A stretch of 64,000 bases of DNA. Origin: Pedobacter mucosus (GTDB lineage: Bacteria; Bacteroidota; Bacteroidia; Sphingobacteriales; Sphingobacteriaceae). Shown piece after piece: positions 13,398 to 64,000 of this stretch; position 1 is the first letter of the stretch, and each line of letters opens with the position of its first letter. Location: contig NZ_CP087585.1 in NCBI RefSeq assembly GCF_022200785.1, positions 2,170,001-2,234,000 of the forward strand. Reading direction: 5' to 3'. Both the position numbers and the translations under genes were made by a program. The notes beneath the pieces are model-generated. The model searched no databases. It was given only the letters and a program-made list of their open reading frames with translations, and was not told the DNA's origin.

Positions 13398-13625
13398 AAA
13401 TTCATACGGAAGATGTTGCCTTACCTATAGCATATGTTGCCCAACATACAGAAGATGTTGCCATACTTATAGCGTATGTTGCCCGACATACGGAAGATGT
13501 TGGCCAACATACAGAAGATGTTGCCTTACCTATAGCATATGTTGTCCAACATACGAAAGATGTTGCCATACCTATAGCATATCTTACCCAACATACGGAA
13601 AATATTGCCTCTCATATCGCAAACT
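13398..13625. repeat. 21/42-bp minisatellite
   Basis: Alternating 21-base units of the types ATACGGAAGATGTTGCCTTA(C) and CTATAGCATATGTTGCCCAA(C) give a 42-base higher period, with about ten units and point differences. Because 21 is a multiple of three, the + frame stays open from 13390 to 13668 and would encode a Cys-rich repeat (CCPTY, CCLTY, CCHTY). There is no ribosome-binding or promoter evidence. The flanks contain two TTTTTAACACTTTTG words (about 13270-13302). Confidence 0.7.
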
Positions 13626-15159: not shown

Positions 15160-15708
15160 TTGAGTACTAAGTATAAAATACGAGACCAAGAGCAGCTTTA
15201 CTTTGTAAGTTTTGCCGTGGTGTATTGGCTTGATGTTTTTATAAGGAACGAATATAAGGAAGTGCTTTTGGATAGCTTGCGTTACTGCCAGAAGGAAAAA
15301 GGACTGGAGGTTTATGGATGGTGCATAATGACCAGCCATGTTCATTTGATTATTGTTACAACAGGTAAAAAGATGGAAGATATTCTACGGGATTTTAAGA
15401 GCCATACCTCAACTCAATTAAGAAAAATGATTAAGAATAACCAACAGGAAAGTAGGCGTGAATGGTTGCTATGGATGATGGAAAGAGCGGGCAACAAAAA
15501 CAGCAACAACAATGGATACCAATTTTGGCAACAGGACAACCATCCAATAGAGTTATGGGATAATTATATGAAAGAACAGAAATTAGATTATCTGCATGAG
15601 AATCCGGTAAAATCAGGTTTTGTGTCGAAAGCAGAAGATTATCTTTACAGTAGTGCGAGAGATTATTGCGGAGAAAAGGGCTTGTTGGAGATTAAGCTAA
15701 TTGAATAA
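15160..15708 (+). CDS. REP-associated tyrosine transposase (RAYT, IS200-like Y1 HUH)
   Basis: 182 residues. The HUH metal-binding pair is His60 and His62 (TSHVHLIIV). The catalytic Tyr is probably Tyr144 (KLDYLHENPV), followed by the conserved SSARDY end. RAYTs nick and join single-stranded DNA at REP hairpins. The gene lies between inverted REPs at 15046 and 15816, the usual REPtron layout. The best start is TTG at 15160 (MSTKYKI). An ATG at 15143 is one base out of frame across an A7 run. The protein looks intact, whereas a second copy downstream is broken. Confidence 0.88.
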   Translation: MSTKYKIRDQEQLYFVSFAVVYWLDVFIRNEYKEVLLDSLRYCQKEKGLEVYGWCIMTSHVHLIIVTTGKKMEDILRDFKSHTSTQLRKMIKNNQQESRREWLLWMMERAGNKNSNNNGYQFWQQDNHPIELWDNYMKEQKLDYLHENPVKSGFVSKAEDYLYSSARDYCGEKGLLEIKLIE

Positions 15709-15713
15709 GATTT

Positions 15714-15834
15714 GGTTTTGTGTCGAAAGCAGAAGATTATCTTTACAGTAGTGCGAGAGATTATTGCGGAGAAAAGGGCTTGTTGGAGATTAAGCTAATT
15801 ACATAAGCTTTGGGGCACAAGCGGACGCTTGCGC
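15714..15834. repeat. extra copy of the RAYT 3' end with REP
   Basis: Repeats the last ~90 bases of the RAYT coding sequence immediately after its stop, then the 19-nt REP CACAAGCGGACGCTTGCGC at 15816-15834. The copy is nearly identical to the gene tail except near the stop (TTACATAA instead of TTGAATAA). Confidence 0.85.
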
Positions 15835-18680: not shown

Positions 18681-18814
18681 CCCTGTAATATCAGGTTTTG
18701 TGTCGAAAGCAGAGGATTATCTTTACAGTAATGCGAGAGATTATTGCGAAGAAAAGGGCTTGTTGGAGATTAAGCTAATTACATAAGCTTTGGGGCACAA
18801 GCGGACGCTTGCGC
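18681..18814. repeat. RAYT 3'-end fragment with REP
   Basis: Begins CCTGTAATATCAGG, closest to the tail of the broken RAYT, continues to the stop region, and ends with the REP at 18796-18814. It lies 18 bases after the thioredoxin gene stop. Confidence 0.85.
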
Positions 18815-18822
18815 CAGACGGA

Positions 18823-18935
18823 ATCGAAAGCAGAAGATTATCTTTACAGTAGTGCGAGAGATTATTGCGGAGAAAAGGGCTTGTTGGAGATTAAGCTAAT
18901 TACATAAGCTTTGGGGCACAAGCGGACGCTTGCGC
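18823..18935. repeat. RAYT 3'-end fragment with REP, second tandem copy
   Basis: Starts at TCGAAAGCAG, follows the previous fragment directly, and ends with the REP at 18917-18935. Together with 15714 and 18681 this makes three free-standing copies of the RAYT tail. Confidence 0.85.
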
Positions 18936-19063
18936 CAGATGGGCCAGACGGAGGATATTCACTACCGTTATCCTACATCCCCATAGAAAAGCAACTTTTA
19001 TTCAATGAAATTAAAACGAAATGGTGGGGAGCAAATCATCAAATATTTATAAGGATGTTTAAT

Positions 19064-54521: not shown

Positions 54522-55880
54522 CTAGTATTTAAAAACTTTCCCGTTTACAAATACTTCTTGGGTTTTTTCATCAAACGTGGCTTTACCACCTGTACGCACC
54601 GCTGCATTGCACATAATATTGGCTATAGAGTGACGGTAACCCGCTTCAACTGGGGCATTAGGATCTTTGCGGCTGCGAACGCATTCCATCCAATTGCGCA
54701 TATGATTTGAACTTAACACGTCTGCTCCGGTATTTGCTGATGCAACTACAAGTGATGGCGCAGCAAGTTTTACTTCGGGCAACAAGTTAGGTTTCATTTT
54801 CATGGCCGCGGCTGCTTTTGGGCCTAGTCCGCCTTGTGGGGAAACTGTATTGGTAATTAAATTAAGTTCGCCACCATTAGAATAATAGATTTCTGCTGGC
54901 TTTTCGTCACCATTGTGCATGCGTGATGTAAAAACCACTTGAAAACCTTTGCTCATATCATTTAGAGGGCCGTAATCAAAAACAGCGGTAGTAGTATCCC
55001 AATTACGCCTTCCATCTTTCCATTGATAAATACCACCGTTAGCGGTTACACTTCGGGGGTGTGGCAATCCTGTAAACCAGTGTACCGTATCAATTTGATG
55101 GCTCATCCACTGGCCTGGCATCCCAGATGAATATGGCCAAAACAACCTATACTCTAGATAAATTCTTGGGTTAAATGCTTCATACGGGCGGTTTAACAAA
55201 AATCTTTTCCAATCGGTATCTTCTTCCTTTAGCTTAGCTACCAAGTCTGGTCTACGCCAACGCCCCGGTTGGTTCACGTTCCAGCTCAGCTCAACCATGG
55301 TAATATCTCCAAATTTTCCTTCCTTAATGAAGTCGGCAGCCGCCTGATAGTTTTGTCCACTTCTTCTTTGTGATCCAATTTGCAAAATCTGTTTAGAATC
55401 CCTTACCGCTTTCAAAGCTGCTCTGTTATCTTCCATGGTTTCTGCAAAAGGTTTTTCACAGTACACGTCTTTTTTATTATTCACAGCTTCGATTGCATGT
55501 GAGGCATGAGCAAAATCAGGCGAGCTAATAATTACAGCATCAATATCTTTCAATGCGTAAAGTTCATCGTTGTTTTTGCAGGCAGTGATACCATGACCAA
55601 TTTTATTTTTAATATGGTCAACTCCTAATGATCTACGATAATTCCAAAGATCAGAAACTGCAACGATATCGAAATTCAAATCTTTGTTATGGTTTAAAAA
55701 GCAGGGAAACAAAGTATCTTTAAACCTGTCCGAAAAGCCAACTACACCAACATTTACCCTATCATTAGCTCCCATTACCCTGGCATAGCTTTTTGCTGAT
55801 AGGCTAAGGCTTCCAGCATAAGCTCCTGCGGTAACAATTGCAGTTTTTTTTATAAAATCCCTTCTTGATTCGTCCATCAC
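54522..55880 (-). CDS. Tat-exported Gfo/Idh/MocA-family oxidoreductase
   Basis: 452 residues. A twin-arginine signal (ESRRDFIKKTAIVTAGAYAG) sends it folded, probably with NAD(P) bound, to the periplasm. A Rossmann fold follows (VNVGVVGFSD), with VYCEKPFAETMEDN holding the EKP Lys and GSQRRSGQNYQAA. Family members oxidise or reduce sugars, often at C3. It ends the operon GH5-like, DUF1080, Gfo/Idh (6-base gap), which suggests oxidation of a glycoside before cleavage by DUF1080. The cofactor supply in the periplasm is a known puzzle for this type. Confidence 0.9.
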   Translation of the reverse strand: MMDESRRDFIKKTAIVTAGAYAGSLSLSAKSYARVMGANDRVNVGVVGFSDRFKDTLFPCFLNHNKDLNFDIVAVSDLWNYRRSLGVDHIKNKIGHGITACKNNDELYALKDIDAVIISSPDFAHASHAIEAVNNKKDVYCEKPFAETMEDNRAALKAVRDSKQILQIGSQRRSGQNYQAAADFIKEGKFGDITMVELSWNVNQPGRWRRPDLVAKLKEEDTDWKRFLLNRPYEAFNPRIYLEYRLFWPYSSGMPGQWMSHQIDTVHWFTGLPHPRSVTANGGIYQWKDGRRNWDTTTAVFDYGPLNDMSKGFQVVFTSRMHNGDEKPAEIYYSNGGELNLITNTVSPQGGLGPKAAAAMKMKPNLLPEVKLAAPSLVVASANTGADVLSSNHMRNWMECVRSRKDPNAPVEAGYRHSIANIMCNAAVRTGGKATFDEKTQEVFVNGKVFKY

Positions 55881-55886
55881 TTCTAA

Positions 55887-56636
55887 TTAATTAAGTTCTT
55901 TAATTTTGATGTTTCTATAGAATACTTTATTTCCATGATCTTGAATTAAGATATGTCCTTTTGGCGCCTCACCAAAGTTCTTCCAAGTTTTATATTTACT
56001 ACCAGCAACCAGGTCTTTAAACACTTTTGATCCCCGCTCATATTCAACAACTTTAACACCATTTAGCCAGTGTTCAACGTGGTTGTTTGGATAAACCCTA
56101 ACTTCTCCGGAGTTCCATTCGCCAATGGGCTTAATAGTAGTTGCAGGTTTGGTAGACGGGATTAGATCGTATAATGAGGCTAGTTTACGGTTTCCATTCT
56201 TCCCTAATTTTGCGTCAGGATGACGCTCATCATCCAGTATCTGAAATTCTAGTCCGATGCCGGACTTATCCGTTTTTTCTTGCTCGGTAACAAAATATTT
56301 CACGCCGCTATTAGCGCCTTCGGTAAGTTTAAAATCGAACTTCAATATAAAAGCTGCATATTCTTTTGTGGTTACGATATCGCCTCCTGAGCCTTGTTCT
56401 TGCCCATTTGAAGCCAAAACCGACAGTATACCATCTTTCATTTCCCAACCTTTTGCCGGAAACGCATCTTTGAATATTGCACGCCAACCGTCGCTATTAT
56501 TGCCATTCCAAAGCAATTGCAAACCTTCTTTTTTTTCCAATTTGCTAAGTGTGTTTATTTTGGTGCTTTGTGCAGCAACCATGTTTACTGAACAAACTGC
56601 TAATAATACAGCGTAAATCAATTTGTTATTTTTCAT
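55887..56636 (-). CDS. DUF1080 (3-keto-glycoside hydrolase-type) protein
   Basis: 249 residues from the ATG at 56636; the in-frame TTG at 56645 is rejected. It has a signal peptide ([18 protein letters not shown]). The concanavalin-like DUF1080 fold shows [58 protein letters not shown] and [19 protein letters not shown]. Pfam now names this domain 3-keto-disaccharide hydrolase. Next to a Gfo/Idh enzyme it suggests an oxidation-then-cleavage route for a glycoside. The substrate is not shown by sequence. Confidence 0.88.
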
Positions 56637-56674
56637 GAAACTCAATTTTTATTTAGATATATCTTATAAGGTAT

Positions 56675-59810: not shown

Positions 59811-61034
59811 TTATTCTTCGATGTACGCGAGATCTTTGGAAAAAGTATCTTTTATAGTGCCCAAGGCTAAAAAGGCCATCGCCAAGCTTAAAATGCCAAC
59901 GGCAATGCCTGCGTAAAGAATCGAACCATTGAAAAAGCCCTTTAAGTATTGCAGTAGAAGTGACAAGGGTACAACTGCTCCCCGTACAAAATTGGGTGCA
60001 GTTGTGGTAACGGTTGCTCGAATATTTGTGCCGAACTGCTCGGTGGCAATAGTCATAAAAATTACCCAATAACCGACAGAGAAACCCATAAATACACAAA
60101 CCGTGTAAAAGATGGTGACAGACGCCCCGTGCAACGAAAAATATAAGCCTACAGAAAGAATTGAAAGGAAAAGGTAGATATATACCACTTTTACTCTGTT
60201 TTTGAGGAACTGACTGAGCAATCCGCTAGCAATATCTCCCAGCACTAGGCCTCCGTAACAACATGCAACGGCAATGCCAGCGTTAATATCTCCTGCCACT
60301 CCCATTGCTTTCCCAAATTCGGGACAAAGGGTAATGAGGATCCCCACCACATACCAAAGTGGAACACCGATTACAATGCAGCTGAGGTATTTTTTAAATC
60401 TCGGCCAGCTTTTAAAAAGGAAAAAAAAATCTCCCCTAGCGGCATTATGCTCCTTTGCCTTACCAAACATGCCGGATTCTGATACGCCGATCCTCAACAG
60501 CAAGAGCGATAAGCCCAATCCGCCTCCAATAAAAAATGAAGTTCTCCAGTCGAATAAACGAGCGATAAAAAAAGCAGCCACTGCCCCGCTTACCCCAACG
60601 GCGGCAACAATTGTGGTGGCATAACCTCGCCTCTCTTTTGGCATTAATTCTGCGACTAACGTAATTCCGGCGCCAAGTTCGCCAGCCAAACCGAATCCGG
60701 CGATCAACCTCCAAAATGCATATGCATTAACAGAATGAACAAATCCATTCGCAATATTAGCTACAGAATAAATTAATATTGACCCGAACAGCACGGCTAG
60801 TCTTCCTTTTTTATCTCCCAATGTTCCCCAAAATACACCGCCGATGAGCAGTCCGATCATTTGAGTATTTAATAGAAAAACACCAATATCAGTCACTTCT
60901 TTTGCATTTAAGCCCAATGATTGTAGACTAGGAACACGGATAATACTAAAAAGCAGGAGGTCATAGATGTCAACGAAATAGCCTAATGCAGCAACAATAA
61001 TTGCCGCACTTACCAAAGTTTTTTGCTGTGTCAT
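59811..61034 (-). CDS. MFS transporter, sugar-type
   Basis: 407 residues with about 12 hydrophobic helices. The loop 2-3 motif is present (GVFWGTLGDKKGRLAVLFGS), with a central hydrophilic loop (AKEHNAARGDFFFLFKSWPRF). It resembles metabolite:H+ symporters of the sialic acid/sugar type. It lies 21 bases after the FAD oxidoreductase in an operon with an SGNH hydrolase, so it probably imports the product of those enzymes. The substrate is unknown. Confidence 0.88.
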   Translation of the reverse strand: MTQQKTLVSAAIIVAALGYFVDIYDLLLFSIIRVPSLQSLGLNAKEVTDIGVFLLNTQMIGLLIGGVFWGTLGDKKGRLAVLFGSILIYSVANIANGFVHSVNAYAFWRLIAGFGLAGELGAGITLVAELMPKERRGYATTIVAAVGVSGAVAAFFIARLFDWRTSFFIGGGLGLSLLLLRIGVSESGMFGKAKEHNAARGDFFFLFKSWPRFKKYLSCIVIGVPLWYVVGILITLCPEFGKAMGVAGDINAGIAVACCYGGLVLGDIASGLLSQFLKNRVKVVYIYLFLSILSVGLYFSLHGASVTIFYTVCVFMGFSVGYWVIFMTIATEQFGTNIRATVTTTAPNFVRGAVVPLSLLLQYLKGFFNGSILYAGIAVGILSLAMAFLALGTIKDTFSKDLAYIEE

Positions 61035-61055: not shown

Positions 61056-62732
61056 TTAAGGTCTTTCGACTAAGTTTAACCGCTGTTTCTGTTTTAATAA
61101 TTGAGATTTTAATTGGCTATAGTCAACTTCCTGAACTGCCTTTTTTCCATCTATTGCTAATGATGCTGCAGTGGCTGCCGATTCGCCCAAAATCATAAAT
61201 ACTGGTTCCATTCTTACCGAGCCATAAGCGATATGAGAGGAGGAAATACAAACCGGTACGATCAGATTTTTACATTCGGAAATTTTTGGCACAATGGCAT
61301 CATAAGAAATGCCATAAGGTTTTGGAGCTCTCACGCCAATATCTCCTTCGTTTTGAACATAGCCCTCGGGCGTAACATAACGCTGAGCATTATGCGAATC
61401 AAGGGAATATGAGCCCATTCCGATAGATTTCGGCACTTCTTTTTTACCTAGCACTTCTTTTTCGGTCAACACAAAAGAGCCAATCATTCGCCTTGCTTCA
61501 CGAACATAAATTTGGTAAGGCCAGTTTCCATTATCCTTAAACTCGTCTTTTGCAAGTCCCCAAGTACTCAACCTCTGTTGCTGATCTTTGGGAATTCTAG
61601 GATCGGTTAACATGAAATACATTAATCCCTTTTGGTAGTTTTCATGTTCTTTTACAATCTGTTTTCTTCGCTCGTAAGTTGCTTCAGGATAATCATAATT
61701 CATTCCAATAAAATCAGTGCTAAATGGACCGTGGTTATTGGTATCTGTTTTATAATTTGGCAGGGGATCATATTTATTAAAGAGTTCTTTCCATCCACTA
61801 TTAAAAACACGCACTAACAGCTCGTAATCCAATGGGTTGTAACGATCTGGTTTAGGAAACGTTACTTTATTTACAGGCAGATTACTTAAGCACATTCTGA
61901 AACAATAAGCTTGCAGTTTTTGATCTGCAGTTCCATTCGTACCTGGCACTTCGGCCGAAATTCCTGCTAGGAGGCCACTATTGTTATTTCCCGGAATTTT
62001 GTAGGGATCAATTTTAGTTGCGAAATGGTGGCCATGCTGAAAGACGAGGGCTTGCACTCCATTCCAACTTTCACCGTAAGTGGCGTTTGCCTCACGGCCA
62101 ACGTGATAATTCACTTTCGCTGCCGCCATCAGATCACCTTCGTAAGTGGCATCAATAAACACCTTTCCTGTAAATTTCTTTCCGCTTAGTGTGGTAATGG
62201 AAACGATATTCCCATCTTTTTTAATAACTCCATTTTTCCTATCAAGAAATTCGTTTCTATACAACGTTAAGTGATTTTCTTTAACGAAATCTTCCATGAT
62301 CTTTTCCGCCACATGCGGTTCAAAAATCCACATCGTTCTGTCTGCACCATCAATGGCGGGCGTACCTTGACCTTTATTTCCATAGTCCTCTTTTTTCTGA
62401 AAACTCCATGCGGTATTTTCTTGATAGTGGAGGTAAACGCGATGGTAGAATTCTCTGGATAATCCACCAATAACTTCTTTATTACCCGTATCGGTAAAAC
62501 CTAATCCAGATGATGATAGTCCACCCAAATGTTGATCTGGAGAAACGATAATCACCGTTTTCTTCATCCTTGCAGCTTGCACTGCTGCCGTAATTGCCGC
62601 AGCGTTGCCACCATAAACGATAATATCAGCGGTAAAGTCATTTTTCTTCTCTTGTGCATAAGCCATACAAAAGTTAACCTGAAGTTGGAAAAATAAAAGA
62701 CCAATTGAAATTGCAATGAATTGTTTCTTCAT
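61056..62732 (-). CDS. exported FAD-dependent oxidoreductase
   Basis: 558 residues with a signal peptide (MKKQFIAISIGLLFFQLQVN to CMAYAQ). The FAD_oxidored type (PF12831) is shown by the dinucleotide fold DIIVYGGNAAAITAAVQAAR, with GG.AA in place of GxGxxG, then HLGGLSSSGLGFTD, FIDATYEGDLMAAAKVNYHV, and the C-terminal GESAATAASLAI. Members occur in many plant-polysaccharide loci, and their reaction is mostly unknown. The start is 3 bases after the SGNH gene stop. Confidence 0.87.
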   Translation of the reverse strand: MKKQFIAISIGLLFFQLQVNFCMAYAQEKKNDFTADIIVYGGNAAAITAAVQAARMKKTVIIVSPDQHLGGLSSSGLGFTDTGNKEVIGGLSREFYHRVYLHYQENTAWSFQKKEDYGNKGQGTPAIDGADRTMWIFEPHVAEKIMEDFVKENHLTLYRNEFLDRKNGVIKKDGNIVSITTLSGKKFTGKVFIDATYEGDLMAAAKVNYHVGREANATYGESWNGVQALVFQHGHHFATKIDPYKIPGNNNSGLLAGISAEVPGTNGTADQKLQAYCFRMCLSNLPVNKVTFPKPDRYNPLDYELLVRVFNSGWKELFNKYDPLPNYKTDTNNHGPFSTDFIGMNYDYPEATYERRKQIVKEHENYQKGLMYFMLTDPRIPKDQQQRLSTWGLAKDEFKDNGNWPYQIYVREARRMIGSFVLTEKEVLGKKEVPKSIGMGSYSLDSHNAQRYVTPEGYVQNEGDIGVRAPKPYGISYDAIVPKISECKNLIVPVCISSSHIAYGSVRMEPVFMILGESAATAASLAIDGKKAVQEVDYSQLKSQLLKQKQRLNLVERP

Positions 62733-62735
62733 GAC

Positions 62736-63485
62736 TTAAGCTAAAAGTTTTTTTAAAAATGCGGGATAACTATCCTTGGTTATGGTACCGTCGCCTTTGG
62801 TAATACTATCGCCAAAGCAAACGATGTTATTTTGTGGAAGCTCTGTTAACATGATGTAATCGTATACCGTAAGTGCGATGAAGCGATAGCCATTTGCCGT
62901 TGGGTGAATTCCATCGGTAATATTTGAATTAGCTTCATTTCGAATTAGGGAATCTTTGTCCAATCCGATTTTACCAATGGCTTCGAACCGGTGGCCTAAG
63001 TCTAAGCAATGGATTTTATGCCGATCTGCTACGTTTTTGATCACGTCGTTCACCTGTTTTCTTCTACCTTGCACACCTTCTGGATCATAAAATGATGCAG
63101 GATGTCGAGTTAACAAGTGAGGTTCGTAAGTGGGTAAAATCGTCATGATTAAAATCTTGCTTCCAGTTGCTTTGATCTGTTTGACAATGGAAACCAGGTT
63201 TTTTTCATATTCGGCTAACGGAACATATTTAACACTATTCATGTCATTCGTACCCGCCATTAACACGGTTAATTTTGGCATGTAACTAAGACAATCTTTA
63301 TCGATCCTAGCTAATAAATCAATGGTATTGTTGCCTCCAACCCCAGCATTTATGACTTTGAGCTCAGTTTGATCTTGATTAGCAAAAAGGTTTTCATTGG
63401 CGTAGGACAATGTCGATTTGTTAATTAGGGTTAGACCTAAAAAAGCCGTGCTGCCAGTAATTAATTTTCTTCTGGTTAATTTCAT
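62736..63485 (-). CDS. SGNH/GDSL hydrolase with permuted block order
   Basis: 249 residues. The N-terminus MKLTRRKLITGSTAFLGLTL is a Tat-like signal. Blocks normally in the middle come first: INAGVGGNNT (48-52), MAGTNDMN (78-81), then the Asp-His pair DGIHP (Asp191, His194). The nucleophile block, normally first, is last: IVCFGDSITKGDG with Ser227, then YPAFLKKLLA and the stop. All catalytic residues are present, so a circular permutation fits. It probably de-esterifies a glycan (acetyl esterase-like). It is the first gene of the operon with the FAD oxidoreductase and MFS. Confidence 0.85.
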   Translation of the reverse strand: MKLTRRKLITGSTAFLGLTLINKSTLSYANENLFANQDQTELKVINAGVGGNNTIDLLARIDKDCLSYMPKLTVLMAGTNDMNSVKYVPLAEYEKNLVSIVKQIKATGSKILIMTILPTYEPHLLTRHPASFYDPEGVQGRRKQVNDVIKNVADRHKIHCLDLGHRFEAIGKIGLDKDSLIRNEANSNITDGIHPTANGYRFIALTVYDYIMLTELPQNNIVCFGDSITKGDGTITKDSYPAFLKKLLA

Positions 63486-63643: not shown

Positions 63644-64000
63644 TTAAGGTATTATCGTATAAGTAAAAACCTTATAATTTTTATCCGTTCCAATTCCCAC
63701 CTGCGTATTATTTGTCGCAGAAGTTAGGGTAACAATAATGGTTCGGTTTGCCGTCACTGCTGTATTCAATATCGTAATTGGAATATCTCCATACCACTTC
63801 CCTGCTGGGATAGTTACCGATGTAGTTGTGGGAACGGCATAATTTGTTCCTGTCACTGCGGTTCCAGAGATGGAATAATTAACTACAACATCAGCAGTTT
63901 TTAAGGTATTTACATAGACGCGAGCTACCGCTGGTGTAACGGTTACTTTTCCAGAAGCTGAATTGGTAATTGTTGTAGCTGCAGTTGATCCTGTACCGGT
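63644..64000 (-). CDS. 3' part of a cell-surface Ig/Calx-beta-like protein
   Basis: The frame is open to the window edge, so the start lies beyond 64000; the first internal GTG at 63856 is not the start. The 118 visible residues are beta-rich and Thr/Val-rich: VVVNYSISGTAVTGTNYAVP, SVTIPAGKWYGDIPITIL, NRTIIVTLTSATNN, ending FTYTIIP. This is like the N-terminal-type DUF1735/DUF4843 or Calx-beta domains of surface glycan-binding proteins. It may belong to a further SusCD locus outside the window. Confidence 0.6.
   Translation of the reverse strand, partial: TGTGSTAATTITNSASGKVTVTPAVARVYVNTLKTADVVVNYSISGTAVTGTNYAVPTTTSVTIPAGKWYGDIPITILNTAVTANRTIIVTLTSATNNTQVGIGTDKNYKVFTYTIIP

Follow-up and report, generated by a model that had tools for sequence, protein, structure and literature searches.

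A probable circularly permuted SGNH hydrolase of Pedobacter mucosus and its homologues, with block order G-N-H-S

Circular permutation is already known in the SGNH/GDSL hydrolase superfamily, whose linear block order is S-G-N-H. AlgX, AlgJ and WssI contain a circularly permuted SGNH core (PMC9487903, PMC4148444, PMC10302187), and in PatB1 a Ser-His-Asp triad sits in a permuted core of order HSGN (PMC9487903). The superfamily review counts permuted families within SGNH and, in the portions of its text available, names the AlgX and DHHW families as permuted, with the order H-S-G-N (PMC9487903). Here we describe a gene of Pedobacter mucosus (assembly GCF_022200785.1) whose product has the order G-N-H-S, and therefore a different cut. 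It occupies positions 62736..63485, on the reverse strand, of a 64,000-nucleotide stretch (contig NZ_CP087585.1, 2,170,001 to 2,234,000), the whole of which is called the window below. With a probability of roughly three in four, we consider the product to be an SGNH protein cut between helix alpha1 and strand beta2 that keeps the normal closed fold and serves as an exported carbohydrate O-acyl (likely O-acetyl) esterase beside SusC/SusD and a flavin adenine dinucleotide (FAD)-dependent enzyme. The cut giving G-N-H-S appears to be new, while permuted SGNH proteins as such were known: a search of the open-access full-text literature (subscription papers and preprints were outside its scope) found AlgX, AlgJ, PatB1 and WssI as permuted SGNH proteins and no description of this order, as far as the accessible parts of those sources go.

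The blocks of the protein, read from the N-terminus, are VINAGVGGNN, GTND, DGIHP and FGDSITKG, followed by YPAFLKKLLA and the stop codon; the linear S-G-N-H order is absent. A first-pass annotation, made from the nucleotide letters alone, had given this order and the block positions, and had suggested that the catalytic-type residues were retained in a working permutation and not a truncation. Our reading of the open reading frame (ORF) agreed with it on Ser227, Asn80 and Asp191/His194. Among 190 aligned permuted sequences, all four blocks (Ser, Gly, Asn and Asp-x-x-His) were retained without exception, as S227, G48/G51, N80 and D191/H194 (each 190/190), and N46, G78, R127, N183, N186, C223 and G225 were likewise identical in all of them. 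Pfam Lipase_GDSL_2 (PF13472) matched the protein above its cut-off (E 1.3e-25) in two stretches. The better stretch paired residues 35-201 with profile positions 24-177 of 178, and the profile start, the home of block I, lay outside it. Apart from the four blocks, the conserved Arg127-His128 pair may bind substrate; in the printed alignment this stretch is mostly opposite a gap in 1yzf, with one 1yzf Arg aligned to R127.

AlgX, AlgJ and WssI resemble the window protein in having a circularly permuted SGNH core, but their order, in the passages available, is H-S-G-Y or H-S-G-D. The same sources give AlgX and AlgJ a GTSYS block I, a DXH motif, a Tyr in block III and a cap domain, whereas the window protein has the order G-N-H-S, GDSIT, DGIH and Asn80. 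PatB1 and the DHHW family, also permuted, are described there with KDS, DXRY and TDHHW motifs and another cut point; the window protein instead has FGDSIT and TDGIHP, and neither KDS nor TDHHW. In the canonical structures 1yzf, 7ddy, 3p94, 4iyj and 4hf7, the alignments place block I at the N-terminus in the order S-G-N-H. A second permutation in a superfamily that already had one is documented, in the part of the source consulted, for the cpRAS GTPases (PMC2430557), which belong to an unrelated protein family.

We found that the order was general among the relatives collected. A protein search gave 403 proteins at E 1e-3, and in all of the best 120 listed (57-100% identity, 82-100% coverage, the first being the query itself) block I followed DxxH, as GDS in 119 and as GES, with Ser kept, in P0044. 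A chance GDS match is excluded by this conservation of the C-terminal block I. A scan of named genomes found at least 362 relatives, of which the best 80 were taken and 79 loci kept; the order was permuted in 79/79, a GDS block stood before the Asn block in 0/79, and each locus was a single ORF. A second search, with a Verrucomicrobiota member as query, listed 118 further proteins, 116 permuted and 2 short forms without block I. Altogether, 304 of 306 distinct sequences (the window protein included) were permuted, 301 by the strict pattern and 3 with DGTH replacing DG[IVLM]H. They come from Bacteroidota, Verrucomicrobiota, Lentisphaerota and Planctomycetota, with named members in Pedobacter, Mucilaginibacter, Niabella, Chitinophaga, Dyadobacter, Larkinella, Spirosoma, Flavobacteriaceae, Verrucomicrobiota, Lentisphaerota and the planctomycete Gimesia. 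From block I Ser to the C-terminus there remain 19 to 34 residues in the 79 loci, which places the cut in the alpha1-beta2 connection.

These homologues bear directly on whether the gene is an artefact, that is, a frameshift, a fusion or a truncated canonical SGNH gene with an accidental terminal GDS. The first-pass annotation had looked to homologues of the same block order for confirmation, and to a second, N-terminal GDS block in them for refutation. The former were found in the 304 sequences; the latter appeared in 1 of 238 collected proteins and in 0/79 named loci, so that the permutation is not refuted. The single case, P0085, is the one observation that favours an artefact. With Ser227 kept in 190/190 sequences and single ORFs throughout, homologue conservation leads us to reject the artefact as having next to no probability. 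Since the rotation recurs in hundreds of relatives across several phyla, it looks old and working, not like a sequencing error. A plasmid search returned 12 weak records, all below 60% identity, and the five listed ended by query residue 213. Three other loci, L009 (which also starts late in the Pfam profile), L149 and L166, proved on reading to have the canonical order.

Rotating the sequence restored a contiguous Pfam match. When the C-terminal segment was moved before the core, Lipase_GDSL_2 gave one match over positions 1-177 of 178 with 100.9 bits, as against 91.4 bits in two stretches for the unrotated protein. A profile built from 199 rotated sequences was then applied to 40 canonical SGNH loci, 12 from the source genome and 28 from other genomes. 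It matched 36 of them, 28 with block I in the canonical place, 8 over the core only and none in swapped order. The window protein was matched in swapped order, with profile positions 29-211 on residues 33-217 followed by positions 1-30 on residues 219-248. The source genome has 13 Lipase_GDSL_2 loci, and the rotated profile matched 8 of the 12 others. In a tree of 70 rows (34 rotated permuted sequences of the 199 and 36 canonical ones) the permuted rows formed one side of a branch with a Shimodaira-Hasegawa-like approximate likelihood ratio test (SH-aLRT) value of 95. This topology is compatible with a single origin of the permuted rows, many canonical rows being long-branched and the sampling limited.

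The predicted structure pointed in the same direction. The AlphaFold2 model of the window protein has an SGNH-like three-layer alpha/beta/alpha fold with five parallel strands. It contains strand 221-225, with a mean predicted local distance difference test score (pLDDT) of 88 for residues 221-230, and helix 240-248, with means of 94 for residues 241-249 and 70 for the loop 231-240. In canonical SGNH proteins the sheet order is 2-1-3-4-5. Covariation was scored for every offset of the block I strand against the core, on a set of 190 distinct permuted sequences whose effective number is about 134. Offset 177 (221-225 against 44-48) ranked first and offset 149 (against 72-76) second of 172; both equal the differences between AlphaFold2 strand starts, as expected if the block I strand is flanked by beta2 and beta3. 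The covariation thus suggests that this strand packs against both of them, where beta1 lies in canonical proteins. In 400 row shuffles, whose counts are not strict probabilities, the score of preset offset 177 was reached in 10, that of 149 in none and their sum in none, while any offset reached the score of 177 in 11. The same beta2/beta3 signal would arise in a domain-swapped, obligate dimer, in which the C-terminal beta1-alpha1 segment completes the active site of the neighbouring chain, because covariation is blind to packing in cis or in trans. We think such a dimer improbable: the distance between DGxH and block I Ser hardly varies, at 32 to 35 residues in the 79 loci, and both AlphaFold2 models, of the window protein and of the Gimesia member, are single-chain and hold the strand and the helix with good confidence. 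Homologue conservation, the rotated Pfam and profile matches, the models and the in-register covariation support a circular permutation.

The gene lies in an operon-type setting, as had been proposed. The FAD oxidoreductase gene (PF12831) that starts 3 bp downstream is the sole full-length PF12831 match in the genome, where 13 further matches cover at most the first 145 positions; its product gave no match to solved structures by sequence at 1e-3. In 59/79 loci there is an FAD homologue scoring above 60 bits, and in 53/79 it lies on the same strand no more than 400 bp away; these counts are lower bounds because the PF12831 gene of L124, found by Pfam, falls under the BLAST cut-off. At this close range it stands downstream in 44 loci (gaps of -8 to 318 bp) and upstream in 10. 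Within 1.5 kb, an FAD homologue accompanied 56/79 permuted loci and 0/40 canonical loci, a control that was not genome-matched. At L043 (7216-9198) and L049 (6636-8897), the neighbouring FAD oxidoreductases carry a Golvesin C-terminal domain (PF25275). Upstream, beyond the window edge and after a small ORF, follow genes for SusD (SusD_RagB), SusC (a TonB-dependent receptor), FecR and a sigma-70-type factor, like those of the extracytoplasmic function (ECF) group. The SusD_RagB and TonB-receptor genes are on the same strand as the SGNH gene, in a predicted operon. SusC and SusD homologues occur together in 51/79 loci, and members of GH2, GH88, GH28 and GH97 are present at some. The major facilitator superfamily (MFS) transporter had been called sugar-type, which is not clearly so: in Pfam it matches MFS_1 best and Sugar_tr next, and its top NCBIfam model is the aromatic acid/H+ symport subfamily, far below the model cut-off. 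The suggested glycan-processing setting held up through the SusC/SusD genes and through fusions to a fucoidan-lyase-like domain.

In 8/79 loci (L120, L121, L123, L124, L126, L128, L129 and L134), a protein of 658-674 residues ends in the permuted SGNH domain and has a beta-helix of about 450 residues as its N-terminal part; L131 is a ninth long form, with 386 residues. Seven of the eight fusions are from Flavobacteriaceae or uncultured Formosa, and L129 is from Arcticibacter. The N-terminal part of L124 matches fucoidan lyase FdlA (7xz7 and others) at E about 1e-64; the remaining seven fusions share 81-88% identity with this part of L124 across about 450 residues. The L124 locus also holds a sulfatase and a sodium:solute symporter. 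FdlA, a homologue of the fused beta-helix, differs in its own C-terminus, which is an F5/8C domain with a Por tail according to the part of the report available (PMC9410043) and not an SGNH domain; the window protein itself lacks the beta-helix. These fusions tie the SGNH domain to polysaccharide breakdown.

We propose an oligosaccharide O-acyl, probably O-acetyl, esterase, on the grounds of the fold, the invariant SGNH residues, the acetylxylan esterase relatives, the SusC/SusD setting and the lyase fusions. The nearest solved relatives include acetylxylan esterases within a canonical group (1yzf, AlAXEase 7ddy, Axe2 3w7v and 3p94); 71 solved chain sequences match the family profile, 60 of them compared by their best stretch alone, and none of the five with a printed alignment (1yzf, 7ddy, 3p94, 4iyj, 4hf7) is permuted. 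The chain would be permuted between helix alpha1 and strand beta2, with the canonical beta1-GDS-alpha1 unit placed after the C-terminal helix, and the fold would close as usual. In the catalysis that we infer by analogy with canonical SGNH enzymes, Ser227 would be the nucleophile, Asp191 and His194 would complete the triad, and the Gly of block II and Asn80 would form part of the oxyanion hole. The protein is probably exported: an RR pair occurs within the first 35 residues of 162/190 non-fusion permuted sequences, as TRRKLIT in the window protein, and the genome has a TatC gene. This twin-arginine translocation (Tat)-like signal was read from the motif and the genomic TatC, not from a signal-peptide predictor. 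The enzyme would then O-deacylate, most likely O-deacetylate, an oligosaccharide imported by SusC/SusD of the same predicted operon, and the neighbouring FAD-dependent oxidoreductase may act on the same compound. Another SGNH activity, such as acyl transfer or the cleavage of aryl or feruloyl esters, is unlikely, though it is the most serious competitor. It draws on the below-cut-off resemblance of the MFS neighbour to the aromatic acid symport subfamily and on the permuted AlgX, AlgJ, WssI and PatB1, which, in the text available, work in polysaccharide O-acetylation; yet Asn80 of block III is invariant where the same text gives AlgX and AlgJ a Tyr, SusC/SusD uptake genes stand at 51/79 loci, and 8/79 carry the lyase-like fusion.

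Several observations weigh against the permuted, closed carbohydrate esterase that we favour. The acyl group and the sugar are guesses, and the aromatic-acid leaning of the transporter would also fit a feruloyl-type ester. The active site could also form in trans, between the two chains of a domain-swapped dimer. Structural matches, listed over the core as 50 rows per model, end by residue 220 in 50/50 rows for the window model, and therefore do not place Ser227; 49/50 rows for the Gimesia model end by residue 201, 3mil_A reaching 231. The offset test was made after the top covarying pairs were seen, though its offsets equal the strand-start differences of the model, and the model and the covariation rest on overlapping sequence sets. 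In an earlier series of 100 shuffles any offset reached the score of 177 in 1 and that of 149 in 63, and all such counts fall short of strict probabilities because shuffling also breaks relatedness. The rotated profile missed 4/40 canonical loci and matched 8 over the core only. Since the queries were permuted proteins, the unanimity of the homologues is partly selection; close relatives are present among the 306 sequences (in 5 of them the last 180 residues are the same as in another), as are two short forms that lack block I, P0132 (147 residues) and P0216 (201 residues). P0085 has an extra VFGDSL around residue 30, between the signal and the core, which would be either a coincidence or the remnant of a block I duplication; its C-terminal block is intact. 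The gene is patchy, being found at E 1e-40 in 19/201 genomes of the family to which the source genome belongs and, with only the top six candidates scored per listed genome, in 4/395 class genomes at 1e-25; the source genome is counted in both. Finally, no FAD homologue exceeds 60 bits in 20/79 loci, including L060 (a 6.2 kb contig) and L124, and the canonical control is unmatched because only 12/40 of its loci belong to a genome in which the FAD family is known to occur.

Table 1. Coordinates, in the window, of the SGNH gene, its parts and its neighbours
Feature	Position	Strand	Basis
Circularly permuted SGNH hydrolase, 249 residues	62736..63485	-	ATG-start ORF; Pfam PF13472; homologues permuted
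Tat-like signal region, residues 1-30 (TRRKLITGS...)	63396..63485	-	RR motif; TatC in genome; pLDDT about 50
New N-terminal core: strand beta2 and block II (Gly), residues 44-53	63327..63356	-	AlphaFold2 strand 44-48; N46, G48, G51 invariant
Block III GTND, Asn80, residues 78-81	63243..63254	-	G78, T79, N80, D81 in 190/190
Conserved Arg127-His128, possible substrate-binding pair	63102..63107	-	R127 in 190/190, H128 in 188/190; role inferred
Block V DGIHP, Asp191 and His194	62901..62915	-	D191, H194 in 190/190
Transposed block I: strand beta1 and IVCFGDSITKG, putative nucleophile Ser227, residues 221-231	62793..62825	-	Conservation, AlphaFold2, covariation
Helix alpha1 YPAFLKKLL at new C-terminus, residues 240-248	62742..62768	-	AlphaFold2 helix 240-248
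FAD_oxidored (PF12831), conserved partner	61056..62732	-	3 bp downstream; Pfam E 4e-110
MFS transporter	59811..61034	-	PF07690; 21 bp after FAD gene; homologue in 9/79 loci
Small lipoprotein-like ORF, upstream	63644..64000, on to 64135	-	Pfam-less

Other features were noted elsewhere in the window. At 54522-56645, a GFO/IDH/MocA oxidoreductase adjoins a 3-keto-disaccharide hydrolase (PF06439), a pairing that we take to recall the 3-keto glycoside route. At 13403-13609 lies a tandem repeat that codes for a CCPTYxRCC-like low-complexity ORF; its period is 21 bp, and periods of 63 and 105 bp fit as well. Tandem duplications at 15616-15813 and 18703-18939 have periods of 98 and 121 bp and 97% matches, with mostly alike units; the short ORFs beside them resemble pieces of REP-type transposases.

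The rotation goes unseen because in Pfam the permuted proteins pass for ordinary GDSL lipases that lack their beginning. A second cut that spares all catalytic-type residues would show that the fold tolerates permutation beside its nucleophile, and the permuted family offers a natural model on which other SGNH enzymes could be rotated. Going further, it is conceivable, though we would put it a little short of even, that one permutation at the alpha1-beta2 loop founded an ancient cross-phylum clade, which would be a new carbohydrate esterase family that forms a conserved pair of enzymes with an FAD-dependent oxidoreductase and carries out an undescribed deacylate-and-oxidise step of glycan use. 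The link to the FAD oxidoreductase and the fucoidan-lyase-like fusions together offer a handle on an uncharacterised step of polysaccharide use.
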